DNA from: Panorpa germanica
Taxonomy: Eukaryota > Arthropoda > Insecta > Mecoptera > Panorpidae
Direction of reading: 5' to 3'
Assembly: GCA_963678705.1 (NCBI GenBank)
Contig: CAVMBN010000209.1
Location: forward strand, 62,001-126,000
DNA length: 64,000 nt
Shown: piece by piece, positions 41,049 through 63,394 of the stretch
Layout: each line of letters begins with the position of its first letter
Position numbering within the stretch: position 1 is the stretch's first letter
Position numbers and translations under genes: made by a program
Notes under the pieces: generated by a model
What the model saw: the letters and a program-made list of their open reading frames with translations, nothing else
The model's database searches: none
What the model was told of the DNA's origin: nothing

Positions 41049-42427
41049 GTTACTTCTTTTGCATGTTTTGCTATAAGTTTTCCTGTTTGTATATGTTTTA
41101 AATTCATAACGTTTGTTTGTTTATTTATTTGTTGAATTACATATTGTCCTTTTTTAATTGGATCTGCTTTATTTCTTAGATTTTTGTTTATGGAAACTAA
41201 ATCTCCTATATTAAATATAGTAGCTTTTATTTTGTCGTTAATTCTGTTAATAGTAACATTTTTCTTGTGAATGTTTTCTTCGTGTATTTTGTCGTATATT
41301 CTCTCTAGGCTGTCAAGATGATCTTTTATCTTGTCCTGAGTAATTTCCATTTCTATTTCTAGATCAAATATGTTGCGTGTGTTTGATCCGTATAATACAC
41401 TTAAAGGAGTCATACCAGTAGTTGAATGTATGGTATGGTTATAGGCTAATACACATTTATTCATTATTTCCACTAGTGAGATAGTATCATTAGTTTCTTT
41501 GATTTTTCTATAATGTTCAATCAGTGTGCTATGTAGTCTTTCTACAGGGCTATTTCCGGTGTGATGTACTGCTGTAGTGAAATGTGTATTTATTTTATGT
41601 GTAGCCAATAGTTCTTTTACTCCAAGATTTATGAATTCTGATCCTTGATCCATAATTATTGTTTGAGGTATTGGTATTGTGGATAGTATTTCTATCAATT
41701 TGTTTACAATTTCTATACTATTTTTACCTAGTATGTTTTTTATTATAGCATATTTGCTAAAGGGATCTATCATTGTTAGATATTCTTTTCTTTCAATAAC
41801 AAATGTATCAATGTGTATTAGTTGAAAAGGTCTATTTGGAGTCTCAGTGATGTTCAAATGAGTTTGGGTAGAGTGTCGCTTATATTTGTTAGATTTGCAT
41901 AATCTGCAATTGTCCACATATATTTTTATTTCTTTTTCTATGGTAGTCCAAAAATATTTTTCTTTTAATCTCTTGATTAAATCGGGTATTCCTCTATGAT
42001 TCGTTATATCCGTATGATATTCGTGTATTAAATTTTTTCTTTGTTGTAAGTCTTTAACATATTTAACGTTTTTCATACACCTGTAGAGTTTTAACGTTGG
42101 AAAATATTCCTTTCGAACTATAATGAGGTTTCTGTATATGTCTTCTGCAGTTTGTACGTAATATTTTTCTTTAGGATTTAATTTTTTAAGTTCTTGTATT
42201 AATTGGTCTTTATTTTTATATTTTACTGATATTTTAAAAATTTGTTGTGTATCTCTTTTTATTAATATTGTTTTAGGTGGTTCTTTAAAAGTATATGTTA
42301 TAAGTATCTGATGTAGATGTGATTCTAATAGTTTTTCACATATAGGTATTCCTTCATCGCTTTCTTGTTGTGAATGAATTGTTGCGTTAGAGACAGTTGA
42401 ACTTCCTCTTATTGGTGGTGTTTTCAT
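40991..42427 (-). CDS. Integrase region of pol
   Basis: 478 codons. An H-H-C-C zinc-binding N-terminus (HEYHTDITNH...CRLC, about residues 136-180) precedes an RNase H-fold catalytic core with the D,D,E set: LIHIDTF, IIMDQGSEF, SPVERLHSTL. The C-terminal part (FNIGDLVSINKNLRNK) resembles the Ty3/Gypsy GPY/F-like tail. It is in the same frame as the upstream RT ORF, separated by one TAA at 42446-42448, so the intact gene was a single pol frame. The start codon given is internal. Confidence 0.9.
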   Translation of the reverse strand: MKTPPIRGSSTVSNATIHSQQESDEGIPICEKLLESHLHQILITYTFKEPPKTILIKRDTQQIFKISVKYKNKDQLIQELKKLNPKEKYYVQTAEDIYRNLIIVRKEYFPTLKLYRCMKNVKYVKDLQQRKNLIHEYHTDITNHRGIPDLIKRLKEKYFWTTIEKEIKIYVDNCRLCKSNKYKRHSTQTHLNITETPNRPFQLIHIDTFVIERKEYLTMIDPFSKYAIIKNILGKNSIEIVNKLIEILSTIPIPQTIIMDQGSEFINLGVKELLATHKINTHFTTAVHHTGNSPVERLHSTLIEHYRKIKETNDTISLVEIMNKCVLAYNHTIHSTTGMTPLSVLYGSNTRNIFDLEIEMEITQDKIKDHLDSLERIYDKIHEENIHKKNVTINRINDKIKATIFNIGDLVSINKNLRNKADPIKKGQYVIQQINKQTNVMNLKHIQTGKLIAKHAKEVTKIKHPLIPGVGPSGQQEK

Positions 42428-42445
42428 TGATCTTTCTTCCGGTAT

Positions 42446-43837
42446 TTAATCAATAGTATTTTCTTCAGACGTTAGATCAATTATTTGTTCTGGTATTTCT
42501 TGTTGTTGTTCCGGGTTATTTTGTATAACTTCTATGTCGGGTATTTCGTCAAGAAATTGAAGATCCTCCATAGTCACATCTGGGTTATTAAAGAGTGAAC
42601 AGGTTTCATCTGGTTTTTCAGGTTTAGGGAAAACATTTATTCTGACTCTTGATAAAGCGTCTGCTACTTTATTTTGTTGTCCTGGTTTGTATTCAATCTC
42701 GTAATCATAGTCTAGTAACTTGATTTGGTATCTTGTTAATTTTGAAGAGACGTTCTTAGTGTCTTTAAGCCATACAAGAGGTCTGTGATCAGTTATCAAT
42801 TTAAATTTTCTTCCATATAAATGATGTCTGAAATATCCTGTTGCCCATACAATCGTTAAGAGTTCTTTTTCGATTGTTGAATATTTATTTTCAGCTTCAT
42901 TGAGAGTTCGAGAAGCATATGCTATAGGCTTGTCGTTATTATTTTCCTTCTGAGATAATACTGCTCCGATTGCTATGTTTGAAGCATCTGTCGATAGAAT
43001 AAATTGTTTATCGTAGTTAGGTCGTATCAATATTGGTGCGTTTATTAGGGTTTCTTTTAAAACATTGAATGCTTGGTGGTATTCAGGTGTATATAGATTT
43101 TTATGTCCTTTCTTGAGACATAAGGTTAATGGCTTAGCTATTTTCGCATAATCTTTCATAAATTTTCTATAGTATCCGGAGAGTCCAAGAAAACTTTTTA
43201 TGTCTTTAGGTGTAATAGGCATAGGAAATTTCTTAATAGCTTCTAGTTTATTAGGGTTTGGTTTCAAGCCATTTGATGTTACAATATGTCCTAAGAATTC
43301 TGTTTCTTTCTTTAAGAATTTACATTTATCTATTTGAATTTTTAACTTAGCATCTCTTAATCGATTTAACACATGCCTCAAGTTTTCTAAATGTTCTTGT
43401 AGAGATGTTCCAAAAATAATTATATCATCAAGATACACTAGGCAAATATTATTTACTAGTCCATCTAAGACGTGGTTTATTGTTCTCTGAAAAGTCGCCG
43501 GAGCATTTTTTAAACCAAAGGGCATTCTAAGGTATTCATAGTGTCCTGTTTCTGTAGAGAAAGCGGTTTTCTCTACACTGTCAGAATGCATTTCTATTTG
43601 TAGAAATCCACTGTGTAAATCTAAGGTTGTAAAGTAATTTGAATTACCTATTTTACTAAGTACTACGTCTATATTAGGTATCGGGAATTTATCTTCAATT
43701 GTTTTATGGTTTAGTTTTCGATAATCGTTAACAATTCTTATTTTCGCTTTTCCACTGTTGTCTATTTTCTTTGGGACTATTATAATAGGACAGTTATATG
43801 GTGATTGACTGTTTCTAATTATTCCTTGATTTTTCAT
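42446..43837 (-). CDS. Reverse transcriptase-RNase H region of pol
   Basis: 463 codons. RT fingers and palm: NCPIIIVPKK, VNDYRKLNHKT, TLDLHSGFLQIEM, LRMPFGLKNAPATFQR and the YLDD box (CLVYLDDIIIFG). RNase H follows: LSTDASNIAIGAVL, STIEKELLTIVWA, ITDHRPL. It ends in a linker (KVADALSRV). The frame is continuous upstream into the protease. The first Met at 43837 is not the natural start. Confidence 0.92.
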   Translation of the reverse strand: MKNQGIIRNSQSPYNCPIIIVPKKIDNSGKAKIRIVNDYRKLNHKTIEDKFPIPNIDVVLSKIGNSNYFTTLDLHSGFLQIEMHSDSVEKTAFSTETGHYEYLRMPFGLKNAPATFQRTINHVLDGLVNNICLVYLDDIIIFGTSLQEHLENLRHVLNRLRDAKLKIQIDKCKFLKKETEFLGHIVTSNGLKPNPNKLEAIKKFPMPITPKDIKSFLGLSGYYRKFMKDYAKIAKPLTLCLKKGHKNLYTPEYHQAFNVLKETLINAPILIRPNYDKQFILSTDASNIAIGAVLSQKENNNDKPIAYASRTLNEAENKYSTIEKELLTIVWATGYFRHHLYGRKFKLITDHRPLVWLKDTKNVSSKLTRYQIKLLDYDYEIEYKPGQQNKVADALSRVRINVFPKPEKPDETCSLFNNPDVTMEDLQFLDEIPDIEVIQNNPEQQQEIPEQIIDLTSEENTID

Positions 43838-44490
43838 ATTTTCTATCTGTCGTGTAACTTCTTTTCTATGTATTTCTGGATAAGGGTAGTTTTTTACATA
43901 GATGAGTTCATCATCTGTTGTTCTAATATGATGTTTAGTTACATTAGTAAAAGATAGTAATTCATTTTCTGCCGGAAATAAGTCTTTGTATGAATTTAAT
44001 AATTTATATAGATTTTTTGATTCTTCTTCATTAAGATGTTCATTTTTTATTTTTATATATATTTTATTGTTTATTTTTTTTATTGTTTATATTATATTAT
44101 TGTCCATATATATTTTAATATTTGTTTTCGGTGTTTTTAGTATATTATTTTTAAAATCAATTTTTCCTTTTAGTTGTTTAATTAAGTCAACGCCTATTAA
44201 ACCGTGGAATTTCTTGTCAAAGTCAAACAAATATATTTTGTGATATTGGTTTTCTTTGAAAGTAGGAAATAGTGGGATTGTTGCCGTATATTTATGGTTG
44301 GTAGTTTGATGAGGTGTAGTGATTGAAAATTCATCATCTTTTACATATTTATTATAATATTTAAAAGCAAGAGATGGTTTTATTAAGGTTCTTGATGATC
44401 CTGTATCAATTAGAAACTTAGCTTTTAATTCGTCGATATATATAAAAGGTAAAGGTGCATTTTTATTAGTGTTTAATTTAATATTTTCTA
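43838..44490 (-). pseudogene. Aspartic protease region of pol, with one stop
   Basis: Same frame as RT. Active site F-L-I-D-T-G-S at about 44413-44393, and a GLIGVDL segment. A TAA at 44087-44089 interrupts the linker to RT. Gag ends in a different frame, so pol was likely reached by frameshifting. Confidence 0.8.
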
Positions 44491-47829: not shown

Positions 47830-48762
47830 ACACATAGTAGATAGGAACCACTTGTGTTGCAAAGCAATATTAACGTCCTTGTAAACCAATACGTAGGTCT
47901 TCCTTTTTGTATTAAGTCCCATCTGTCTTGCCAGAGCTTATGCATATATGCATTCATCTCTTTGGCAATATATTTGATATAGTCTCCAGACTTTTATCCT
48001 ACAGCCGCATTAACTTTAAATCCTCGAAATTTGTCGCATTAATTTTAAATCATCAAAATTTAATTTTTTCAGTTCTAGCGTAATTTGTACTTGAATAAGT
48101 GCATGAGTTATTTTTAAATCTAAAGGAATTGTCCCCAATATCACTTGCACCACTTCTGTAGATACAGTTCTGCAACAACGCGTCATCGTCAATAACATAG
48201 TTCTTTGCATGGAAGATCTGAAAGATTGATCCTGTAATACCATGCCGAAGCACAATTCACAACTATTAGCATAAATGCCCCCTTGTATAGTGTCGGCATA
48301 GTTGCCGAGTTTAAGCTTCATTCCGTCCTTGTGACACGCGCAAGGTGTGTTACAAGTTTATCATTCGTTGTTACTGTATTTGTTTCGTAGCTTTGTAGCT
48401 TCAAAAAACTACAGATTTTATATATAGCAGGTCGAGAACGGCTTTCTAGGGTTTCTGTACTCTTTGCACCGTTAAGGATCACATTATCGTTGGCAAAACA
48501 TATGTCTACACAACCTTTCGAGTGAGAAACACAGTTCTCGTAGAATACCATGCTCCAGAGCTCAGGCCCCATTACAGATCGCTGAGGACAACCTTTAGAT
48601 AGTTGCCTTTTCATGGAACGGTAATCGGTTTGTAAAATAATGTTTGACAATGAAAAAAGTTCTCCATAGCGCAGTAGACGTACTTATAGGTTTTTGCCGG
48701 TCTAATTCTTTGAAGGTCACTTGGCCACCGGACATCAACAAAGGCACACTGAATTTCTATAA
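47830..48762 (-). pseudogene. R1-like RT fragment, monomer 10
   Basis: Frames 48650-48318 and 48321-48016. A one-base loss near 48636 shifts the start of the first frame. Motif C reads FANDNVILNGA. Confidence 0.8.
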
Positions 48763-49415
48763 ATATCTCATATACATACTTGTACTTATGCCTACTTACT
48801 TACCATTTGTTTGTTACCATTGAATGTTCATGAACGATCAATCACTATTTCCAAGAAAACTGCATATATTGTTCACTTAAACACTTATAACAATTAATAC
48901 ACTCTCATTATTATTTAAAACACGCATTTATATAAACTAATTCTTGTGTTTTAATATTATTTATAGTTAATTTTAATCGACTTACTTGATAGTGGCCGGC
49001 AACCTTTTGTCTTCCGTATATTTGTAGTGTTTATATGAGGTCTTCCTTATATATCTCTACATATTTCTGGAATTTTAAACCACTTGATGTTTTAGCACTA
49101 ACACTAACCTAATTATTATCACTTATTTTGTCTATCGCACTTATTAATGTCTTATATCAAACATCAAAGTTACAATTTTGAGGTTATGTTTATAAGACCG
49201 CGTGTACGCGTAATAAAAAATTCGTTTTTAACACTGGTTTCCAACTGTCAAACTTTTGTAAAAACACTTTGTTTAGGGTAAATTAACACAAATTTAAAAT
49301 AAACTTAAATACTTTTCGTTTGAAAAAGTATTCATATAATTTATTTAATTTTTTTCCGTAATTAATTTCTCACTTTTAATCACTTTTTTTACCTAAAGTA
49401 GCAGGAGCCGATCAC

Positions 49416-50340
49416 ACACATAGTAGATAGGAACCACTTGTGTTGCAAAGCAATATTAACGTCCTTGTAAACCAATACGTAGGCCTTCCTTTTTGCATTA
49501 AGTCCAATCTGTCTTGCCAGAGCTTATGCATATATGCATTCATCTCTTTGGCAATATATTTGGTATCGTCTCCAGACTTTTATCCTACAGCCGCATTAAC
49601 TTTAAATCCTTGAAATTTGTCGCAGTAATTTTAAATCATCAAAATTTGATTTTTTCAGTTCTAGCGTAATTTGTACTTGAGTAAGTGCATGAGTGATTTT
49701 TGAATCTAAAGGAATTGTCCCCAATATCACCTGCACCACTTCTGTAGATACAGGTCTGTAACAACGCGTCATCGTCAATAACATAGTTTATTGCATGGAA
49801 GATCTGGAAGATTGATCCTGTAATACCATGCCGAAGCACAATACACAACCTTTAGCCTAAATGCCCTCTTGTATAGTGTCGGCATAGTTGCCGAGTTTAA
49901 GCCTCATTCCGTCCTTGTGACACACGCAAGGTGTGTTACAAGTTTATCATTCGTTGTTACCGTATTTGTTTTGTAGCTTTGTAGCTTCAAAAACTACAGA
50001 TTTTATCTATAGCAGATCGAGAACGGCTTTCTAGTTGTTCTGTACTATTTGCACCGATAAGGATCACATTATCGTTGGCAAAACATACGTTTACACAACC
50101 TTTCGAGTGAGAAACACAGTTCTCGTCGAATACCATGTTCCAGAGCTCAGGCCCCATTACAGATCGCTGAGGACAACCTTTAGATAGTTGCCTTTTCATG
50201 GAACGGTAATCGGTTTGTAAAATTAATGTTCGACAATAAAAATAGTTCTCCATAGCGCAGTAGACGTACCTAGAGGTTTTTGCCGGTCTAATTCTTTGAA
50301 GGTCACTTGGCCACCAGACATTATCAAAGGCACACTGAAT
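49416..50340 (-). pseudogene. R1-like RT fragment, monomer 11
   Basis: Frame 50253-49987 holds motifs B and C and is ended early by a one-base loss near 49988. Thumb frame 49784-49602. Confidence 0.8.
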
Positions 50341-50993
50341 TTTTATAAATATCTCATGTACATACTTGTACTTATGCCTACTTACTTACCATTTGTTTGT
50401 TACTATTGAATGTTCATGAACCAATCACTATTTACCTAATATTCACTATATTCACCTAATCACTTATATCAATTAATACACTCTCTTTATTACTTAAAAC
50501 ACGCATTTATATAAACTAATTCTTATGTTTTAATATTATTTATAGTTAATGTTAATCGACTTACTTGATAGTGGGCGGCGACCTTTTGTCTTCTGTATAT
50601 TTGTAGTGTTTATATGAGGTCTTCCTTATATAGCTCTACAGATTTCTTAAATTTCTTAACCACTTGATGTTTTAGCACTAACACTAACCTAATTATTATC
50701 ACTTTGTCTATCGCACTTATTAATGTCTTATATCAAACATTAAAGTTACAATTTTGAGGTTATGTTTATAAGACCGCGTGTACGCGTAATGAAAAATTCG
50801 TTTTTAACACTGGTTTCCAACTGTCAAACTTTTGTAAAAACTCTTTGTTTAGGGTAAATTAACACAAATTTAAAACAAACTTAAATACTTTTTGTTTGAA
50901 AAAGTATTCATATAATTTATTTAATTTTTTTCCATAATTAATTTCTCACTTTTAATCACTTTTTTCACCTTAAGTAACAGGAGCCTATCACAT

Positions 50994-51508
50994 ACATAGT
51001 AGATAGGAACCACTGCAAAGCAATATTAACGTCCTTGTAAACCAATATGTAGGTCTTCCTTTTTGTATTAAGTCCCATCTGTCTTGCCAGAGCTTATGCA
51101 TATATGCATTCATCTCTTTGGCAATAAATTTGGTATTGTCTCCAGACTTTTATCCTACAGCCGCATTAACTTTAAATCCTCGAAATTTGTCGCATTAATT
51201 TTAAATCATCAAAATTTGATTTTTTCAGTTCTAGCGTAATTTGTACTGGAGTAAGCACTTAGCATGAGTAATATTTATATTTAAAGGAATTGTCCCCAAT
51301 ATCACCTGCACCACTTCTGTAGATACAGTTTTGCAACAACGCGTCATCGTAAATAACATATTTCTTTGCATGGAAGATCTGGAAGATTGATCCTGTAATA
51401 CCATGCCGAAGCACAATACACAACCATTGGCATAAATGCCCCCTTGTATAGTGTTGGCATAGTTGCCGAGTTTAAGCTTCATTCCGTCCTTGTGACACGC
51501 GCAAGGTG
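50994..51508 (-). pseudogene. R1-like RT fragment, monomer 12, truncated
   Basis: Thumb frame 51482-51231 carries a small insertion near 51255. Motifs A-C are absent because the LTR at 51509 cuts the monomer. Confidence 0.8.
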
Positions 51509-51685
51509 TGTCCGAAATATTAATTAACTAATCCTTTATTCAAAGCACGTAAAGTTTCAAATATAGTTTATATTAAAACCAAATACTAATATTCAAAGAA
51601 ATGATGACGAAATGACTTTTGGATTTAAGATAAACATAGCTAGAGTTCAAATGAGTTAATATATTTAAACAAAGACTTTTTAAGC

Positions 51686-51693
51686 TATATAAA
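51686..51693 (+). promoter_or_regulatory. TATA box of LTR
   Basis: TATATAAA, with TCAGT at 51718-51722, the arthropod initiator consensus, 32 bases downstream. The spacing is right for an RNA polymerase II start. Confidence 0.65.
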
Positions 51694-51905
51694 CCTAAGA
51701 AAAAGGGGATTCCAGAATCAGTCCATCTTGATCAGCCCAGTTAGTACGTCGAGACCCAGTCGAAAGGTCAGTCTAATCAGACTCCGTCAAATAGGGAGTA
51801 GCGCCCCTCAGTCGGTGGTTCGGGTATTAGACAGTCGCTTCAATTTAAAGATTATAAAGTTACTAAAAGAATTACTTAAGAATTGTATTAAATAATTGAT
51901 TGTTT

Positions 51906-51911
51906 AATAAA
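51906..51911 (+). terminator. Polyadenylation signal in LTR
   Basis: AATAAA about 185 bases after the predicted start, defining a plausible R region. Confidence 0.45.
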
Positions 51912-52249
51912 GAAAATAAGTGTTAATGAATACATTGTTTTAATTGTAAAGTACTTAGATTTAACGGTCGTGTCGCGTTAAAATAAAGTGATTGTTCAAA
52001 AGCAGAGAAAGCAGCCTGCAGAACACAAAAAGTAAGTAAAACCTAATATATTTATGTAATATTATTAGAAGAAGTACTAAGTCCTGATAGATAAATAAGA
52101 CATCCACAATTAGCTCAGGTCATTCGACTCAAGGTGAGCCAGATCACTATAAAAGAACCTATCGTTAGAGAGGATTGTAGAATCGCTCTCTTAAAATAAG
52201 TAACTACCCTTATATATAGATAGTAGATATAAGGGGTGGGGTTACATTT

Positions 52250-52266
52250 TGGTGTCAGGTGTGGGG
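52250..52266 (+). promoter_or_regulatory. Primer-binding-like site
   Basis: TGGTGTCAGGTGTGGGG, three bases after the LTR. Almost the same as the site at 1632 in a different element. Confidence 0.6.
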
Positions 52267-53340
52267 TGTGTTAAAAAAGAGGTCCTTTAAAAGAGGGATA
52301 TTAAAATTGTGGGATATGTTAAAAAGGGGTATTAAAACTGTGGGATGTTAAAAAAGGCAGAAATTTGATTAATTGGGAAAAAGGGCATTAAGTGGAAAAT
52401 TTAATTTGAGAAAATAAAGGGAAATTTAAGTAACTGGGAAATAGAAATAAGAATAAATTTTATCAATTGGTAAAAAAGGATAAATTTGAATAATTTAGAA
52501 AAAAGGATAAAATTGTATTAATTGGAAAAAGGAATATAGTTTATTAATTGCAACTAGCAAATGCATATTAATAATTAGAAAAAGAAAAGATATCAGCATA
52601 ATTAAAGAAAAGGGAAAATTTAAATAATTAAAGAACGGGGTATTTTAAGTTTTTATAAAAGGAATAAATTTAAGGAACTAAACAGTATATAATTTTTCTA
52701 AACCATAACTTATTAAAGTTGAATATTTTTGTTTTAACCGTAACTAAATAAGGGATATTTTTTTAAAATAGTTTTGTAATTCACAAGTAAAGTGGCACGT
52801 TTTTATAAAGTATAAAGTGTAGAGTCATTGTAACAGGAATAAAAAAAAAATTAATAGTTTTGTTTTATCGTAATTTTATTAAGAGATTGGAACGATGAAA
52901 AAAATTTGTAACACAACTTATTTGAAATTATTTTAAACTTGTTTTTAGTTCATATGAGAAATTATTAAGTATTGCATAAAATAGTTTATTTTATTTTATT
53001 TCAATAATAATTAAAAAATAATTTTATCAATTTACAATTCGTTAATATACTTTTGTCATAAATATTGTTTGTTAAAATTTTTATTTTGGTTTTTATTGTT
53101 CTAAAACAGTCTATATTAAATATACTAGCATTTTGTTTGACCTACTTAAAAATAATTTGTTTGTTTATTTTTATGTATATAAACAACTAGACGTTCCATT
53201 TCGTTTCAAAAAGTAAATCACAAGAGTACAGTTTGTTAAAATAACTAAGACAGTGTAAGGTATTGTTTACTTTTAAAAATAGATTATTTTTTCTCTCTTT
53301 CTTTTAACGTCCAAGATTTTAAAATATTTGTAGTAGTTTA
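52267..53340 (+). other. A-rich leader with degenerate repeats
   Basis: About 52310-52640 repeats AATTGGGAAAAAGG-like phrases imperfectly. The rest is AT-rich. No gene; I see no clear start codon for gag. Confidence 0.6.
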
Positions 53341-54357
53341 TTGAAGCTTATTTAAGGTTTTTATTTGATTGAAAGTTTATTCCAAATAGTTAAAAAGACA
53401 ACTAATGAAACAAACGTAGATATTGCCCCAGAAATTCCTAAATTAAAAGGATTAAATTATATACCATTCTTTGACGGTACAGGTAGCATAGCAACATTTT
53501 TAAATGCGGTGGATCAAATGGCAGAATTGTTGGATTAAACCGATAAGGTGCAATTAGTTACCGTATTTGCAAAAGTGTCGCCTACTGTAGCTGAATATCT
53601 TTAGTCTAATTCGGAGGTTCAAAGTGAGAACCGTAGTTATATGAGTATTCGTAATGCATTATTGTCTAGATATAGCAGAAAAGGGCCATCTGCTCTGAGA
53701 CAAGCAGAAATTGAGTTCGGGGGTTGTAAACAAAGACATGGCGAGACTGTTTATGAATTTTCACAAAGGTTATGGGCATTAGGGTCAAAATGTGTACCAG
53801 AAGCAACTGATAAACAGCAAGAAAAGAAGCTTTCAGTTGAGTTACAAGTAGCCGTTTTAATAAGGTTTAAGGAAGGGATATCGCAGAGATATTCTAAGTT
53901 TATTTGGGCCGCGGATCCCAAGAGTTTCAATAACGCCGTTGGAATTGCGGAAAGGGTAGAAACCGATGATTTAATCTCATCGAAGCAAGGCTACGTAGCA
54001 GAGATTACTACAGGTGGAACTAACCAAATAAACAGAGCCGACCACTATTATGTAAATCGCGCATCTCAAAATAATCAATCGTTTATGCGACTTAGCAACT
54101 CGCGTAGCGGTTCACAAAGCCGAAGGTTTAATAATAGGCAAAGAGATGGAGTAAGGTGTTACAATTGTAACAGATTAGGACATTTTTAGAGAGACTGTCG
54201 TAGCCGTCCTCAACGTCCCGTTAAGGACGAAAGAGATCGATTTCAAAGAAATCGCAGTTCAAGTAGGTATGAAAACCGTAAGCAAAGTAATGACCGATTA
54301 GGGAGAGTTAGAGTCCTGCAAGTGTATAATGATAGCCGTAGTCCTGCGAGAAATCAG
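53341..54357 (+). pseudogene. Gag with CCHC zinc knuckle, broken
   Basis: Capsid-like frame: GLNYIPFFDGTGSIATFLNAV, then the intact stretch 53641-54186 (YSRKGPSALRQAEIEF, RHGETVYEFSQRLWALG). The zinc knuckle starts CYNCNRLGHF and continues past a TAG at 54187 to the final Cys. Stops in frame at 53536, 53602, 54187 and 54357. An Arg-rich tail follows the knuckle. Not functional. Confidence 0.75.
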
Positions 54358-54519
54358 TGACAAGTTACTTTCCAAAGTAATAGAAATATTCGAAGCATCG
54401 AAAATAAGCCAAGCGAAGTTGAAGAAAGAAATTTACGCGCGTCCAATAATTATAAAGATAATTTAAACGAATTGATGGCTTTACTAACTACCCGAGACGT
54501 AGAAGCCATTCAATAAGTA

Positions 54520-54850
54520 AAAAGGGTAATCTTACACCTCTGTATGTACCGGCATTTCATGATAATCAATGGTTTCCTAATTTAATAATTAATGGTCAAA
54601 ATTGCAACGTTCTTATAGATAGTGGTGCAGGCGCCAGCCTACTAACTAGAGAATGTTAAAACGGAAAAAATTACAGAATCGCAAAATATTTTGCGAGATG
54701 CACAAAATAATAAAATACATACACTTGGTAAAAGCAAATTAAAGTTAGATTTATTTGGGGATAATGTGACTTTTGATTTTGAAATTGTAGAAAATATGGA
54801 AAATTGGACAGGGATAATTGGGTTAGACTTTCTTCGTAAATTTGGGATAA
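54520..54850 (+). pseudogene. Aspartic protease region of pol, frameshifted
   Basis: V-L-I-D-S-G-A-G active site with the Asp codon at 54618, and the second protease half (GIIGLDFLRKFG) at about 54811-54846 in another frame. A one-base shift lies near 54655. The downstream half is fused in frame to the macrodomain region. Confidence 0.75.
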
Positions 54851-55731
54851 TTGTAGATTTTGGAAAGGGTATTTTAATATATAGAAACGTTATTTACGAC
54901 ATTAATCGTAATACTGTACATGATTTTCAGAGAGATAATTTAAATATAAATAATATGATTAGAGAAAATGTAAATCGTATCGTTAGAAAGCAAAAGCGTA
55001 TTATATCAAAGTCAGGGAAAATCGTAGAAAAGAATAGAAATGGTAGAAATATGGGTTGTACTGAAACGGAAAATATTGACGAAAAAAGAGAAGTAAATAA
55101 TCAGCGAATTGATAAGATAGGGCATGACTATAAAAGTTTTGATGATTTTCTAAAATGGAAAATTAGTAGATTTCCAACGATAGAGACGTTGTGCAAAATA
55201 AATTTGAATAAGGAAGATTTGTTTAATGCATTTAGCAAGTATGCATTGGGTCATTGTATAGCCTCAGATTTACGTATGTCACAAGGAATAGCAGTTGAAT
55301 TTAAAGAAAGATTTGGTAGAGTTGAGCAGCTTTTGAAACAGAAACAGAAAAAGGGGGGATTAGCTATATTAAAAGATGAAAATCGTTTTATATATTATTT
55401 AGTAACAAAGAAGAGAAGTAACGAGAAAGCCCTCTACGCAGATTTATATTCGTCAATAATTAAATTAAGGGATCATATGTTAGAAAATAAAGTAAAATTT
55501 ATTGCATTACCATACATAGCATGTGGGCTAGATAAATTAGATTTTAAAATAGTGAGTAAAATGATTGAATATATATTTTCGGAATGTAAAATAAAGATAG
55601 CATTCTATGATGGCGAATCGGAAAAAGATAAAAAAAGATATATGAACTGTTTAATAAATAAAAATGATAAAGATTTAAAAGATATCATTGACGGAAAGAA
55701 TATTAAAGTCCAAGAACAGGTAAAGAAATAA
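54691..55731 (+). CDS. Protease end plus TARG1/OARD1-type macrodomain
   Basis: 346 codons, open from before the listed TTG. Residues 1-60 are the protease C-terminal half; about 65-150 a basic low-complexity linker. Residues about 168-308 form a macrodomain closest by eye to TARG1/OARD1: DLFNA, GHCIASDLRMSQGIAVEFKE, GGLAILKDENRFIYYLVTKK, LPYIACGLDKL, and a final beta strand KIAFYD. K240 and D281 match the Lys and Asp used by human TARG1 (K84, D125) to release ADP-ribose from glutamate. Length (~140 aa) is that of a whole domain. The stop at 55729-55731 is followed in the same frame by the next pol segment, so it probably arose by mutation. Activity is inferred, not shown. Confidence 0.82.
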   Translation: MRDAQNNKIHTLGKSKLKLDLFGDNVTFDFEIVENMENWTGIIGLDFLRKFGIIVDFGKGILIYRNVIYDINRNTVHDFQRDNLNINNMIRENVNRIVRKQKRIISKSGKIVEKNRNGRNMGCTETENIDEKREVNNQRIDKIGHDYKSFDDFLKWKISRFPTIETLCKINLNKEDLFNAFSKYALGHCIASDLRMSQGIAVEFKERFGRVEQLLKQKQKKGGLAILKDENRFIYYLVTKKRSNEKALYADLYSSIIKLRDHMLENKVKFIALPYIACGLDKLDFKIVSKMIEYIFSECKIKIAFYDGESEKDKKRYMNCLINKNDKDLKDIIDGKNIKVQEQVKK

Positions 55732-55800
55732 AAGAATTTACAAACAAAGTGGTTTAAAAGAATAAACACAGCTGAGCGAGTTGAAAAACTAAACATAAAT

Positions 55801-56349
55801 ATGAATAAAAAATCTGAAACCATTCGAAAGCGAACAGACGCACATACTTGTAGTAGTAATCGGTGTAGTGTTAGGTTATTAGAGCAAGTAACTCTTCCGC
55901 CTCGATGTAAAATGAATGTTCATGCATTTCAAAAAGACATTAAGGAAGGTTATGGGATTTTTAACCCAGAATTGACCGTAGATGGAGTATTAGTAGCTAG
56001 AAGTGTAAATTCAATATGTAAGGGGCAAAAGAATATAAATATACCAATAAATACTAAGATAGGTATAATAGAGCCATATGATAACGAATATACTGAAACA
56101 GTTGAATTATTAAGAGAACACGTCCGACATAAAATTAAAAATATTTTAATTGGTGCTGTACGATCAACAGAAGCAAACACAGGGATTGAAAATATACAAT
56201 TATTTGATGAAATAAGTTATAATAATTTAACAGCTAAAGAAGATAAAATTATACATGAAGTTACAAATCAATGGAAGCAAAAAAGTCATAAGAATGAAGA
56301 GATAAATAAAACACAGAGAATAACGGAACTTTTTAGTAAAATAAAGTAA
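55801..56349 (+). pseudogene. Pol segment between macrodomain and RT
   Basis: 182 codons in the same frame as the macrodomain ORF. LEQVTLPPRCKMNVHAF...DGVLVARSV...INIPINTKIGIIEPYDN is the beta-rich segment that precedes RT in many Ty3/Gypsy polyproteins. A second TAA at 56347 separates it from the RT start in the same frame. Confidence 0.65.
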
Positions 56350-57277
56350 AATCATCTAAGTGCTACAGACCAAAGTAAAATAGAAAATTTAATTTACGAA
56401 TATCGCGACATATTCTTAACAGAAGGTCAAGAATTGAAAACTACCTCGATAGTTAAACATAAGATAATAATTCAAGATGTTCCTCCTATAACTAAACAAC
56501 CATATAGAGTTCCACACGCGCAGTCTTGTACTAAGAGAACAGATAGATCAAATGCTTGAAGATGGCATAGAAGAACCATCAATGTCACCGTGGTACTGTA
56601 ATGTTGTTCTTGTAAATAAGAAAGCAGAAAATGGGGAAAACAAAGTTAGAGTTTGCATAGATTACAGGGGTCTTAACGCAATTACAAAAAGAGATTACTT
56701 TCCATTACCACACTTAGTAGACACTCTTGATAAATTAGGCAAAGCAAGTTTATTTACCAAATTAGATTTAGCATCGGGATTTTGGCAAATTGAAATGGAC
56801 GAAAAATCTAAAGAATTAACACCATTTTCAACACCTGATTTACACCTTCAATTTAATGTTATGCCGTTTGGGTTATTATCAGCTCCTGCTACATTTCAGA
56901 GACTTATGTATGCAGTGTTAGCAGGTTTAACCGGAGTACATTGTTTAGTTTACCTAGATGATATTATAATATTTAGTAACGTTGATGTAGATTCGCATAT
57001 CCAGAGAATTAAAGAGGTTTTCGATCGCTTGAGAGAAGCAAGTTTGACATTGAAGCCTAGCAAATGTGAATTTATGAATAAAGAAACGCAATATCTTGGT
57101 CATATTATTTCTAGTGATGGTGTAAAGGCAGATCCAGGAAAAACAGAAGTAATTAGAAACTATCCGCGTCCGAAAACAGTTAAACAAATCCGATCTTTTA
57201 TAGGGTTAGCTTCATTTTATGGACGATTTATAAAGAATTTTTCAGAATTATCATCAAGCCTAACAAAACTGACTTAA
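56350..57277 (+). pseudogene. Reverse transcriptase, frameshifted near its start
   Basis: The open frame 56552-57277 holds CIDYRGLNAITKRDYFPLP, FTKLDLASGFWQIEM, VMPFGLLSAPATFQR, YLDD (CLVYLDDIIIFS) and FIGLASFYGRFI. The preceding part (about 56350-56545; YRDIFLTEGQEL, HKIIIQDVPPITKQPYR) is in another frame because of a shift near 56525. Active-site residues are intact; the gene is not. Confidence 0.88.
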
Positions 57278-57975
57278 AGCAAAAATGAGACATTTATTTG
57301 GGGACCTAAACAAGAGAAAAGTTTTGAAGCATTAAAAAACGCGTTATGTTTTGAGCCAGTTTTAGCTTACCCAGATTTTAGTCAAGAATTTATATTAGGT
57401 ACAGATGCATCAGGAATCGCATTAGGCGCAATCCTAAGCCAAGTTCAGGATGGAGAAGAACGTCCTGTCGCATACGCTTCTCGTAAAGTAAATAAATGTA
57501 AGAAAAATTACTCAACCACAGAAAGGGAATGTTTAGCAATTTTATGGAGTTTATCACATTTTCGTACGTATTTATATGGTAAGAAATTTAAGATTCAAAC
57601 AGATCACCGATCATTATGTTGGTTAATGACTATGAAAGATCCAATGAAAAGTGGGCTTTAACTTTAGCAGATTACGATTTTGATATTATTTATATTCCAG
57701 GGGTAAAACACGGTAATGTCGATGCATTAAGTAAAAGAGAAACAGAAAGTATTGCAGCCGTAGCAGCTGAAGAAGTTCCATATTGGGATTAGTGTCAAAT
57801 TAAAAACAACAAGCTAGTGATTCCGATATTAAACAATTAATAACGCAAACTAAGTATGGGGAGAAAAATGATTATTATTTAGATGATAGGGGTATACTGT
57901 ATAAGAAAAGTAATGAAAAAACAGATAGAAATGACTATGTAGTAGCACCAACACGAATGGTACCGAATATATAAA
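57278..57975 (+). pseudogene. RNase H and linker, truncated before integrase
   Basis: Follows a TAA at 57275. Contains LGTDASGIALGAILSQ, STTERECLAILWSL and IQTDHRSLCWL, then a frameshift near 57655. The pre-integrase linker (YYLDDRGILYKKS) ends at about 57975, where the Polinton-B join lies. No HHCC domain. Confidence 0.8.
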
Positions 57976-58576: not shown

Positions 58577-58632
58577 AACAAAACATAGTTTAGATATTAG
58601 TTCTTGATAAATTTTGTGTAATAATAATAAGT

Positions 58633-59562
58633 ATGAGCAAAACAAAAATAGGTATAATTAATGAGTTACATAAACCTGCACGTAAAAACTATAAGCGAAG
58701 ACATGTAATCATAAGAGGTCTAAATGAAAGTTGGCAAGCTGATTTAGTAGAAATGATTCCGTATGCAATAGAAAACAAAGGTTACAAGTATTTACTCACA
58801 GTAATTGATATATTTTCTAAATATGCATGGGCAGTTCCAGTAAAATCAAAATCTGCAAAAGACGTTACTGTTGCATTTGAAAATATTTTAATAAGAAATA
58901 AAAATAAGGTTCCGAAAAACTTACAAACAGATAACGGAAAAAAATTTTATAACTCTGAATTTAAAAAAGTAACAAATTATTATGACATAAACCATTATAG
59001 TACATTTAGTAATATGAAAGCATCCATAGTTGAAAGATTTAATAGAACTCTAAAGAATGCTATGTGAAAAGATTTTAGTATAAAAGGCAACTATAATTGG
59101 ATTAATAACATTGATGCACTTGTTAACAAATATAATAATACTCATCATTCAACAATTAATATAAAGCCATCTCAAGTATCAATGAAAAATGAAAAAAAAT
59201 TATTAGGAAATGTATACAATAGGATAAAAAGGGTCGGTTTAAGTCGCTATAAAGTTGGAGATTATGTTCGCTTAAGCAAAACCAAATCATTATTTGCAAA
59301 AGGGTATACTCCTAACTGGAGTACCGAAATATTTACTATATCAAAAGTACAACTAACTAATCCAGTCACATATTTACTTAATGATTCTCATGGCCAATCA
59401 ATTGCAGGCGCGTTTTACGAACAAGAACTACAAAAAACAAAATATACAGATATATATCTAGTTGAGAAAGTTTTACAAAAAAAAGGAAAAATAGTTTTTG
59501 TAAAGTGGTTAGGTTTAGATAAATCTCATAACAGTTGGATAGATGCTAAAAATATTGTATAA
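58633..59562 (+). pseudogene. Polinton retroviral-type integrase with chromodomain, one stop
   Basis: Catalytic core with D,D,E in WQADLVEM, LQTDNGKKFY and SIVERFNRTLK. The C-terminal part has a KVGDYVRLSK barrel-like segment and a chromodomain-like end (VEKVLQKKGKIVFVKWLGLDKSHNSW). A TGA at 59065-59067 splits the frame; both halves (58633-59067 and 59182-59562) are in the same phase. This enzyme would insert the linear element DNA. The stop makes this copy inactive unless read through. Confidence 0.9.
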
Positions 59563-59626: not shown

Positions 59627-62600
59627 TTATAACAATAAATCGCTATCACTTAAATTATCGAAACCCCAAGGCAAAGTATCTGTACTGTTTTTTATAAAAC
59701 ACCGTTTATCATAAAAAGGACTTAAAGCAATTTTTGTTTGTTTAATGGAGTACACATTATGCAATTTTGAAACTATTCCTCTCTGAGTACAATTTTTTTT
59801 ATTAAAAGTTCTCAAACAATTTTTATAATCTTCAAAAGAAATATGGTTTCTTACTACACTTGTCTTTATTCCTTTTATTTTTTTTATAATGTCATTATTA
59901 TTAACCTTCATTGTATACATTTTCGATCTTAGTCCTATAAAGTGAGTCATAATTTTACCGTTATTTTCATCCTTCATCAAACCCAATACCTTTTTATTTA
60001 CACGGGGAATATTATATTGATTGTTTTCTTTATAATCACTTGTATCAAACTTACTTATATCGCGTTTTATAGTTTCATAAATATCTGATGTAATAATTTC
60101 ATAAATTAACGAGTCAGTATCAATATATAATAACTTTAAATTATTATTAAAAAATTCTTTTTCCATATAATTATAATGAAAATCATACATTACTGTTTTA
60201 GATAAATCTAATATTGAAAAGCCAACATATATAGGTTTATTAAATGTAATATTAGGTTTTAAAAGTTCAATAGCTATAACATTTTTATTAAAAATTGTTC
60301 GGCTATGAAAATTAGGTCGTGCTATTAAACTTTTTACTCCATATCGACCACCCCAATTTGTTTTTAATTTTATATCACGATGTTTTTTAACATTTTCCAT
60401 TGTCTTACCAAATACACTATTATTTATTAATTTATACAAGTTTTTTCAAAATCATTGGTAGCCATTTTTCTTTTTTCTGTATTTAAATCGATATAGTTTT
60501 TTAGCCACGGTGATTGACTAAATTTTAAAACTCGATGTATTTTTGATACTTGCATTCCTAAATGTATACATTGCTTTAAATTACTATAATGAATTATATA
60601 TTTCTCCTTATCATATAAAGTAGTTGAAAGTTTTTTATGTTTACTTCCTGGTGCAATACAATGCTCAGGACAAAGCGGTTAATCCTTATGGAGATTATGT
60701 AAACTTTGAGGATAAGTTCAATCTACTTCTAAAATGTTACCAGTATTGCTAGTTTCTGACAAATTGCATATAGTATTACTTATTTCCAATATTTCCTGGT
60801 TGTTTAACCATTTAATATTTCCATATGGTAGGAATTGAGACATTGCATGACCGTATAAGTTATTAACATCGAAATACATTAGATATTTAGAAGGTAATTC
60901 AGGTTTATACTTGTCAGTCATATATTTGTTATTGGCCTCTGCAAATCTGTTTGAACATTGACTTATACCACCTCTGATACCCTTCTCTATAAATAGCCAC
61001 ATATTTATATCAGTAAACAATTCAGGTTTAATTATTGTAATTTTTGACATAGAATCCCATGCTAAGCTAGGAGCAGAAACATAATGCACTGGATCTAATT
61101 TATACTTGTCTAAACAATTATCTCGAAAATTTTCAAATATGTTACAAAGTAATAACACATCGGTTTTTAAGTACAAATCGGAATATTCACCAAGTGTTTT
61201 GATATGAAATGTATTCCATACATCTTGTGCTTTTTTAATAAATTAAAAAAATTATCCTGAGGTTATAAAGCTGTCTCATTTAACTTTTCCCCGGAATTTA
61301 TATAATCATAAGGAAATACACTTTTTTTACTTAACATACTAAATTTTTCATTGCTTAACATGTTAAATTCTGATTTTAAAATTTTAAGTTTATTATTTGG
61401 TAAATATGATGCCAAATTATTTAAAGAACTAGCCATAAATCGATATGAATCAATAAATCTTAATGAAATATTAGTTCCATACACATATTTCGTAAATGAA
61501 ATATATTTTTATTTATTAATTGATAGCAAAGAAGTTCTTCCACTTATTCCAGTAGCTAAATCAATTATTATAAAATGTGAATCATAAGATGATAAATTGT
61601 GAAAAATTATTGGAATCACATAACTTTCATTATAATTTAAATTACATTCATTATGAGCTGGTCCTCTATAATTTCCTGTTAAATGACAATGATCTCGAAC
61701 ACGGTCTTGTTGGAACGGTTTTTCACATATATGACAATTTATTGCATTTAAATATTCCATCTTTTGTTGAGCCGTCAATGTTTTCATTGGTAATACATTT
61801 TTTATTATATCCTCAACATTATAAGCAATCTCTTTTAATTCATTTACAAACCACTGAACGCAATCTTCACCACGATAACTATTATAATAAGATTTAAAGT
61901 CATCATATGAATATTTTACATAATATCCAACGCTATGTGCAATATGTGTTTGATATACCCCCTTGCTTTCAATATTTGTCACATTACTATCCAATATACT
62001 TTCAAAGTCTGCATAAATAACACATGCATTTCTAATTTTTCTCTTAAAGTTTTTAAACTCAAGTATATTAGAATTTCCAACTGGCATTATCGGTTTAACT
62101 GGTCTCAGTCCTAATCTAACACAGTCTTGTAAATGTTCCTTAAACTTGCACTCATCTCTAAAGAAATGTAAACATCGATCACATATAAATTTCTTACAAT
62201 TTGTTTTTGAAAGTTGATTACTAACAAGTCTTGATAAATTCTTTATCCAACAAAAATGAAATTTTATTTTATTGTCGCATTCCTCATTATTACTTTCAAC
62301 AACATCTTGTTTATCCTCTTCTTCTTCTTCTTCTTCTTCTTCTTCAAATTCATAATCACTTTGAATTATTAATAAATGAATATGTTTACTTTCATATATT
62401 TTACTAACATATACAGGAATAGTTACAAATGTTTTCTTGCTCTTTTTTAAAATATACACATTGATTGATATATTATTTAGTTTTTCAAATTTTAAAACTT
62501 GTGATAACGTCATTGGAAATTTAATACGATTTAAATTAAAACAATTTATATATTTCTTATAAGATGATACTCTGTCGCCATGAATTTTTGATGGATAAAG

Positions 62601-63394
62601 TGCTGATATTACTGCCCATACAAAACATTATCATCTCATTCTGAACATTTATTACAGCCTTTTTTCGTCTTATTTCAACTAGTAGTCAATAATGATGAAC
62701 AATAAAATGGAACAAATTAATTTATATTTACTATCATATTCACTATTTTACATAGAGCTCATCCACTTTGACTTTCTTGAAAAGTTTCTAAATATTTTAA
62801 TACAACATCAATAACATTTCCTTATACCAATGTTTTAATTCTGTTGATACAAAAATTTCATTATTTTTAGTATTAAAATAATTGTATTCAAATATATGTT
62901 CTTCTTCTTTAGCTGATGGTAAACAAATTTACCACAAAAAATTACATTAACTTTTTAAAGCACTATGTTTTTTAAGAGCATTTTTAATTCTAGATGCAAA
63001 CATATAAAATGCATCATTTAAAAATTGTAATGGATCAATGTGACTTAAATTAATTAACACTCCTGTTCTAACACGTCCTTTAAATGATAAATTTATTTCC
63101 TGCCATTTAATTCGATCACTACGTTTTGAAGTATTTATAGTTCCTCTTCCAATTTTTTCTTTATTTCTAACAATGTTTGAAAATATTTTAATACACTTAT
63201 ATTGCTTTCAACACTTCGTTTATATCCAATTGAATAGGTATTTTTATTATTATTTTTTAATAACTTATTTAATAATCTATATTAATTTTATTATAATCAC
63301 ACCACTTTTTCCACTGAATACTTCAATAATTTGAACTATTTAAGTGTTCAATAATTTTTCTCATATGCCTAATAATTTTACAACTGCTATCCAT
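59627..63394 (-). pseudogene. Polinton-B family-B DNA polymerase, broken
   Basis: Start ATG at 63394 (MDSSCKIIRHMRKII) with a decayed N-terminal region to ~62520. Frame 62513-61509: two zinc regions (CDRCLHFF; CHICEKPF...DHCHLTGNYRGPAH), ExoI (VIYADFESIL) and ExoII (FHNLSSYDSHFI). Frame 61484-61263 follows in phase. Frame 61176-60718: ExoIII and motif A (YFDVNNLYGHAM). Frame 60439-59627: motif B ([14 protein letters not shown]), motif C ([10 protein letters not shown]) and the C-terminal LPWGFD. Frameshifts lie near 61250 and 60450-60710, with a stop near 61509. Distinct in sequence from polymerase A. A poly-Glu run is encoded at 62318-62347. Confidence 0.92.
62318..62347 (-). repeat. Trinucleotide (GAA)n run in polymerase B
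   Basis: TCTTCTTC repeats encode about 11 Glu in the region between the polymerase N-terminus and the first zinc region. Confidence 0.85.

Follow-up and report, generated by a model that had tools for sequence, protein, structure and literature searches.

A TARG1-type macrodomain in the pol frame of Ty3/Gypsy retrotransposons of Panorpa germanica

A macrodomain of the TARG1/OARD1 type was found inside the pol frame of Ty3/Gypsy long terminal repeat (LTR) retrotransposons in the genome of Panorpa germanica. One copy lies in the window, a stretch of 64,000 nucleotides from contig CAVMBN010000209.1, and its relatives (family A) as well as further macrodomain-bearing elements (families B, C and D) were searched for in the 464-Mb genome (249 contigs) to which the window belongs. 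The elements whose LTRs were compared are recently inserted, and the domain is under purifying selection in families A and B. An initial annotation of the window, made from its letters, had proposed such a domain, and its claims are taken up below with the results that bear on them.

Results

Identity, fold and catalytic residues of the macrodomain

The domain lies in an open frame of 361 residues (54646-55731, + strand, standard code), which begins in the middle of the protease and ends with a TAA stop at 55729-55731. With query residues 27-163 (window about 55198-55608), human TARG1 chains were matched at E=4.3e-35; the sole other entry up to E 1 was a MarR regulator (E 0.32). In the comparison with macrodomain profiles proposed in the initial annotation, the Pfam Macro model (E 4e-4, 20.7 bits) stayed just short of its curated 22-bit cut-off. 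The NCBIfam DarG model reached E 1e-10 and 41 bits, far short of its 250-bit cut-off.

The proposed comparison of a structure model with TARG1 agreed with the initial assignment. The model was aligned without gaps to TARG1 chain 4j5r_B (model residues 26-164 on 13-151), TARG1 was the nearest macro fold, and the identity was about 45% over the domain. Lys97 and Asp138 of the model superposed on Lys84 and Asp125 of TARG1, so that both residues first picked out as catalytic were confirmed in position. Model residues 135-137, adjoining Asp138, had a predicted local distance difference test (pLDDT) value below 50, and the sequence alignment independently set CGLD on CGLD. The Lys and Asp were kept in 31/31 aligned copies of family A, in 27/27 copies of family B that were read and in both copies read of family D (two, near-identical). 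Judged by sequence and model, the window domain is a TARG1-type (ALC1-like) macrodomain with the Lys84/Asp125 pair, a hydrolase by class whose activity is predicted.

Intact elements and recent insertion of family A

With the macrodomain as query, the best 150 of 596 candidates were scored, and 57 places at least 85% identical were found among them; these include fragments, and two are neighbouring pieces of one copy. Eight of the 57 sit in open frames of 1636-1638 residues. The intact element L032 has a gag frame of 377 residues and a pol frame of 1637 residues, in which Pfam searches on pieces gave the order protease, macrodomain, reverse transcriptase (RT), ribonuclease H (RNase H), H2C2 and integrase; the order of protease, RT, RNase H and integrase was found in the same way in L032, L033 and L035. 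Together with the 361-residue frame of the window, this domain order bears out the placement first proposed, in a Gypsy-type pol frame between protease and RT.

Paired TG...CA LTRs were 100% identical in L032 (982 bases), 99.7% in L033 and L034, 99.6% in L035 and 98.1% in L036. The 4-base target duplications of L032 to L036, read by eye, were ATAT, ATAT, ATAT, CATG and CTAG in order. The search suggested initially, for open protease-macrodomain-RT frames with paired LTRs, therefore succeeded in the genome of the window itself. Another family A element, L031, is surrounded by a 2206-base perfect repeat, longer than the LTR, and was not used for LTR identity. These results established that the elements examined are Ty3/Gypsy LTR retrotransposons and that their insertion is recent.

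Position of the macrodomain in different families

Three slots were found for the TARG1-type domain within pol, one ahead of RT, one between RNase H and integrase and one behind integrase. In families A and C it stands next to the protease and before RT, and in families B and D between RNase H and integrase; the part of family D that was read starts with RNase H and stops at the integrase zinc-binding domain. Family B is represented by 18 open frames of 1389 residues. Two of its loci resemble tandem arrays, with three macrodomains spaced evenly by 6361 bases at G000:C5:16555128-16568470 and two lying 6255 bases apart at G000:C197:31298-38173.

Collinearity between families A and C extends from the protease end across the macrodomain (E 4e-32); at the RT level the two are 60% identical, and the pattern points to one uptake that was retained during divergence. 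The family C domain keeps the fold but has Arg and Cys in place of the catalytic Lys and Asp, and is a relative of the macrodomain for which no hydrolase function is claimed. Its counterpart of the RMxxGIA loop has been lost or changed, and its structure model is weak (pLDDT 63). Both RT (66% identical) and RNase H (100/100 support) make P0018 the sister of family B, yet their macrodomain slots differ. Family D grouped in a six-row RNase H tree (95/92) with a Gypsy element of the window at 42000-44200 (- strand), whose RT-RNase H part is nearly open and in which no macrodomain was found.

Three slots imply three or more uptakes or relocations, between which the macrodomain tree (24 rows, family C excluded as a long branch) cannot decide. 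The base of this tree was poorly separated, and a single clade was allowed for A+B (p 0.395), for A+B+P0017/P0018 (p 0.39) and for these plus P0015 (p 0.156). The slots, the macrodomain-less sister of family D and the slot difference between family B and P0018 speak for repeated uptake; movement of the domain within pol, or its loss in the sister of family D, would also explain the pattern.

Purifying selection on the macrodomain

The ratio of nonsynonymous to synonymous changes (omega), a comparison across copies that had been proposed at the outset, was determined for unique rows (29 of 31 in family A, 16 of 27 in family B) from the copies nearest the query, which are not a random sample. 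Omega of the macrodomain was 0.36 in family A (confidence interval (CI) 0.20-0.70) and 0.19 in family B (CI 0.06-0.40), and no stop was present in the family B domain. Amino-acid changes were below the neutral expectation at four transition/transversion weights (1 to 4), with p from 6e-5 to 0.007 in family A and from 1e-4 to 0.004 in family B, values that treat changes as independent. Elsewhere in family B, omega was 0.11 for RT, 0.14 for RNase H, 0.20 for H2C2, 0.23 for integrase and 0.55 for the linker after the macrodomain, so that the macrodomain of this family comes close to its RT, RNase H and integrase; in family A it was 0.37 for the protease and 0.51 and 0.50 for the two linkers flanking the macrodomain. 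In family C, with few changes, omega of the domain was 0.54 (CI 0.23-1.26, p 0.12). The macrodomain is under purifying selection in families A and B.

These data bear on the explanation that the domain is a functionless passenger or an accidentally nested fragment of a host gene. The window copy is dead and 3'-truncated, and constraint on the family A domain is just modestly stronger than that on its linkers, as a passenger would have it. The 57 family A places with their eight very long open frames, the selection and the invariant catalytic pair in families A and B, and the maintenance of the domain both in A and C and in different slots make this explanation extremely improbable. Its nested host-gene version, which the initial annotation had named as the way its proposal could fail, is ruled out by copy number, open frames, selection and differing slots; many copies with paired LTRs and 4-base duplications were found instead of a single one.

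Layout of the window copy

The family A copy of the window was resolved on the + strand into the following features.

51543-52246 (+): remnant of the 5' LTR, 80% identical to bases 273-982 of the 982-base L032 LTR
52247-53279 (+): 5' leader, three overlapping pieces with 80-90% identity to the L032 leader
53374-54513 (+): gag with a CCHC zinc knuckle, broken by 4 stops, 93.6% DNA identity to L032 gag
54462-54656 (+): N-terminal half of retropepsin in a separate frame, 95% identical to residues 1-65 of the L032 protease piece
54646-55731 (+): open pol frame with the C-terminal half of retropepsin, linker and macrodomain, ending in TAA
55198-55608 (+): TARG1-type macrodomain, from the match to human TARG1 chains
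55408-55410 (+): Lys codon, counterpart of TARG1 Lys84, from the gap-free structural and the sequence alignment
55531-55533 (+): Asp codon, counterpart of TARG1 Asp125, from both alignments, the preceding loop being of low model confidence
55732-56349 (+): pre-RT linker, open frame, no Pfam family over cut-off
56386-57289 (+): RT (RVT_1 E 1.3e-36), interrupted by one stop and by a frameshift near 56515
57278-57661 (+): RNase H (RT_RNaseH_2 E 1.4e-39)

The zinc knuckle was weak in the window gag (E 0.0078) and clear in L032 (E 2e-6). The protease is interrupted by a frameshift near 54650; its intact L032 counterpart matched aspartyl protease families in Pfam, with RVP above its cut-off. DNA similarity to L032 stops at 57972, the integrase end is missing, and the LTR evidence consists of the 5' remnant. 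The initial remark that the macrodomain is unbroken amid broken gag, protease and RT holds for this copy, but the feature is not special to it, as the long pol frames of other copies are open.

An integrase with chromodomain at 58594-59562 (+) was considered as part of the copy and dropped, as it had no match to family A DNA. Beside it, at 60718-61239 (-), a DNA polymerase B of viral type was detected (E 2.6e-10), accompanied by an endonuclease VII domain. The minus-strand fragments span 59627-62627 and, together with the integrase, abut the truncated copy. We take these neighbours to be Maverick/Polinton-like company, to which the integrase was assigned. Upstream, at 48000-51500, units of about 1.58 kb are repeated in tandem; the copies share 93-96% identity, with one stretch at 71%, and contain a minus-strand RT fragment.

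Relatives in public proteins and viruses

The nearest named public proteins to the window macrodomain were mostly from insects. With the 361-residue frame as query, four proteins were retrieved at E 0.01, all lacking retroelement domains, and a family A piece retrieved only Banna virus VP5 (P0019). The protease-macrodomain-RT order of family A was absent from the public proteins searched, where such proteins may be unannotated. TARG1-like macrodomains without any retroelement domain were carried by beetle, Hemiptera and flea proteins (P0001, P0002, P0005, P0006, P0009-P0014 and P0016) and by P0007 and P0008. A second, diverged macrodomain copy was seen in P0005, P0006 and P0009; P0006 represents 57 sequences and P0010 has a PAM2 motif. 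P0003 (493 residues) combines a TARG1-like domain with a PHD-like cysteine pattern recognised by eye, and is possibly an open reading frame (ORF) of another mobile element.

Banna and Kadipiro viruses are double-stranded RNA viruses. VP5 of the former showed 51% identity across 74% of the query stretch, and VP8 of the latter (BFVD A0A8E0KJF2) was the top viral structure match, at 38% identity. One tree set P0019 next to family A on a branch that is not firm (85/90); once family C was included, P0019 was placed elsewhere. These proteins share the TARG1-like macrodomain in another, viral context, unlike the pol fusion described here. Two single-protein scans of viral contigs gave no relative, and an alignment scan gave 10 IMG/VR contigs (L078-L087) with macrodomains 30-39% identical to that of family B.

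Discussion

On balance, we consider it probable that Ty3/Gypsy Gag-Pol has acquired a TARG1-type (ADP-ribosyl)hydrolase that lifts a block set by host ADP-ribosyltransferases, an account in which we infer catalysis, packaging, substrate and host block. The macrodomain would be translated at the Gag-Pol level, in one frame with the other pol enzymes (protease, RT, RNase H, integrase), and packaged into the particle along with them, as its position in the pol frame leads one to expect. The Lys/Asp pair would work as in TARG1, stripping mono-ADP-ribose esters from Glu/Asp or nucleic-acid ends; the targets may be element proteins, complementary DNA (cDNA) or the integration complex, and removal of ADP-ribose would relieve the host block. 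An eraser in the particle or integration complex is favoured because TARG1 removes Glu/Asp and nucleic-acid-end ADP-ribose esters, cleavage of both the former and nucleic-acid phosphoesters being described in the text available of PMC7050489.

The same chemistry suits a repair role, in which cDNA or RNA ends of the element, rather than protein, would be the substrate. ADP-ribose on nucleic acids is a substrate of both TARG1 and DarG (parts of PMC7050489 and PMC9411070), thymidine-linked ADP-ribose being reversed by TARG1 as by DarG in the latter; the domain belongs to the polyprotein that synthesises and integrates cDNA, and the NCBIfam DarG model matched at E 1e-10, short of its cut-off. We nevertheless regard a substrate confined to nucleic acid as quite unlikely. 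The domain could instead serve nicotinamide adenine dinucleotide (NAD) metabolism or signalling, for instance in the removal of O-acetyl-ADP-ribose or in sirtuin-linked silencing, and not act on a mark on the element. O-acyl-ADP-ribose is also a TARG1 substrate (PMC7050489, in part), and L1 elements are silenced when SIRT6 mono-ADP-ribosylates KAP1 (PMC4695847, in part); the Gag-Pol fusion points to action inside the particle, however, and such a role is very unlikely.

Several observations weigh against the eraser account. In family C, Arg and Cys replace the catalytic Lys and Asp in 12/12 copies, so hydrolysis is dispensable in some lineages. Among 37 non-B Gypsy RT places with frames of at least 1000 residues (best 150 of 1752 candidates scored with the family B RT), 36 had no macrodomain match within 36 kb, the sole exception being family D; the domain is thus not required by Gypsy elements generally, in a count that compares coordinates with macrodomain searches of which the best 150 candidates were scored and which could miss diverged domains. 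Two stops occurred inside the macrodomain among the 29 unique family A rows. The pre-RT stretch of family A (omega 0.33) is constrained equally to the macrodomain, and the linker before the domain in family B (omega 0.14) is as constrained as the domain. The differences from linkers had the expected direction without being significant (family A against both flanks, Fisher p 0.11; family B against the following linker, p 0.08).

Persistence of family C without the catalytic pair favours, in that lineage, a reader rather than an eraser: binding of ADP-ribose would tether the integration complex to chromatin or DNA breaks modified by poly(ADP-ribose) polymerases (PARPs) and steer integration, with hydrolysis secondary. 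As a general account this is unlikely, given that both catalytic residues are retained in families A, B and D, that the domain of A and C adjoins the protease, distant from integrase, and that the family C model is weak, with the loop counterpart lost or altered. A wider version of the hydrolase proposal, which we find plausible but would not yet bet on, is that invertebrate Gypsy elements took up the enzyme at least three times into three places of pol, much as dUTPase entered retroviruses. ADP-ribosylation would then be a widespread barrier, hitherto unrecognised, that LTR elements meet when they transpose, and in some lineages (family C) the eraser would later have turned binder.

TARG1/OARD1 (C6orf130), of the ALC1-like class, shares fold, Lys84/Asp125 pair and about 45% identity with the window domain; it is a stand-alone host protein, whereas the window version is one domain of a retrotransposon polyprotein. 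DarG is the antitoxin of a bacterial toxin-antitoxin system, without the full Lys/Asp pair (as given in part of PMC7050489). Capture of a host-type nucleotide enzyme into retroviral polyproteins is known from dUTPase. In lentiviruses this enzyme, which belongs to another pathway, is placed between RNase H and integrase, where families B and D have the macrodomain.

What appears to be new here is a macrodomain inside a Ty3/Gypsy pol frame; fish epsilon-like endogenous retroviruses, likewise LTR retroelements, are reported to carry macro-domain proteins (Basta et al. 2009, through the review PMC4977317). There, by the review's description in the part available, the domain forms additional ORFs and is not part of a Ty3/Gypsy pol frame. 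The initial statement that no LTR element with this domain order was described is therefore not fully upheld. For Ty3/Gypsy elements, no report of such a domain was present in the literature searched, which included parts of PMC4977317, PMC5982333, PMC4695847 and PMC8195603 and lay outside most subscription journals.

Macrodomains of RNA viruses have been studied as counters to host ADP-ribosylation. A TARG1-type domain under selection in recent Gypsy insertions, in several lineages and slots, would extend this conflict to retrotransposons. The macrodomain offers a concrete enzyme for asking whether ADP-ribosyltransferases restrain LTR elements, and one genome provides natural contrasts between the pair-bearing families A, B and D, the pair-less family C and macrodomain-less families. 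These results suggest that the macrodomain-bearing elements have to undo ADP-ribose tags set by the host.
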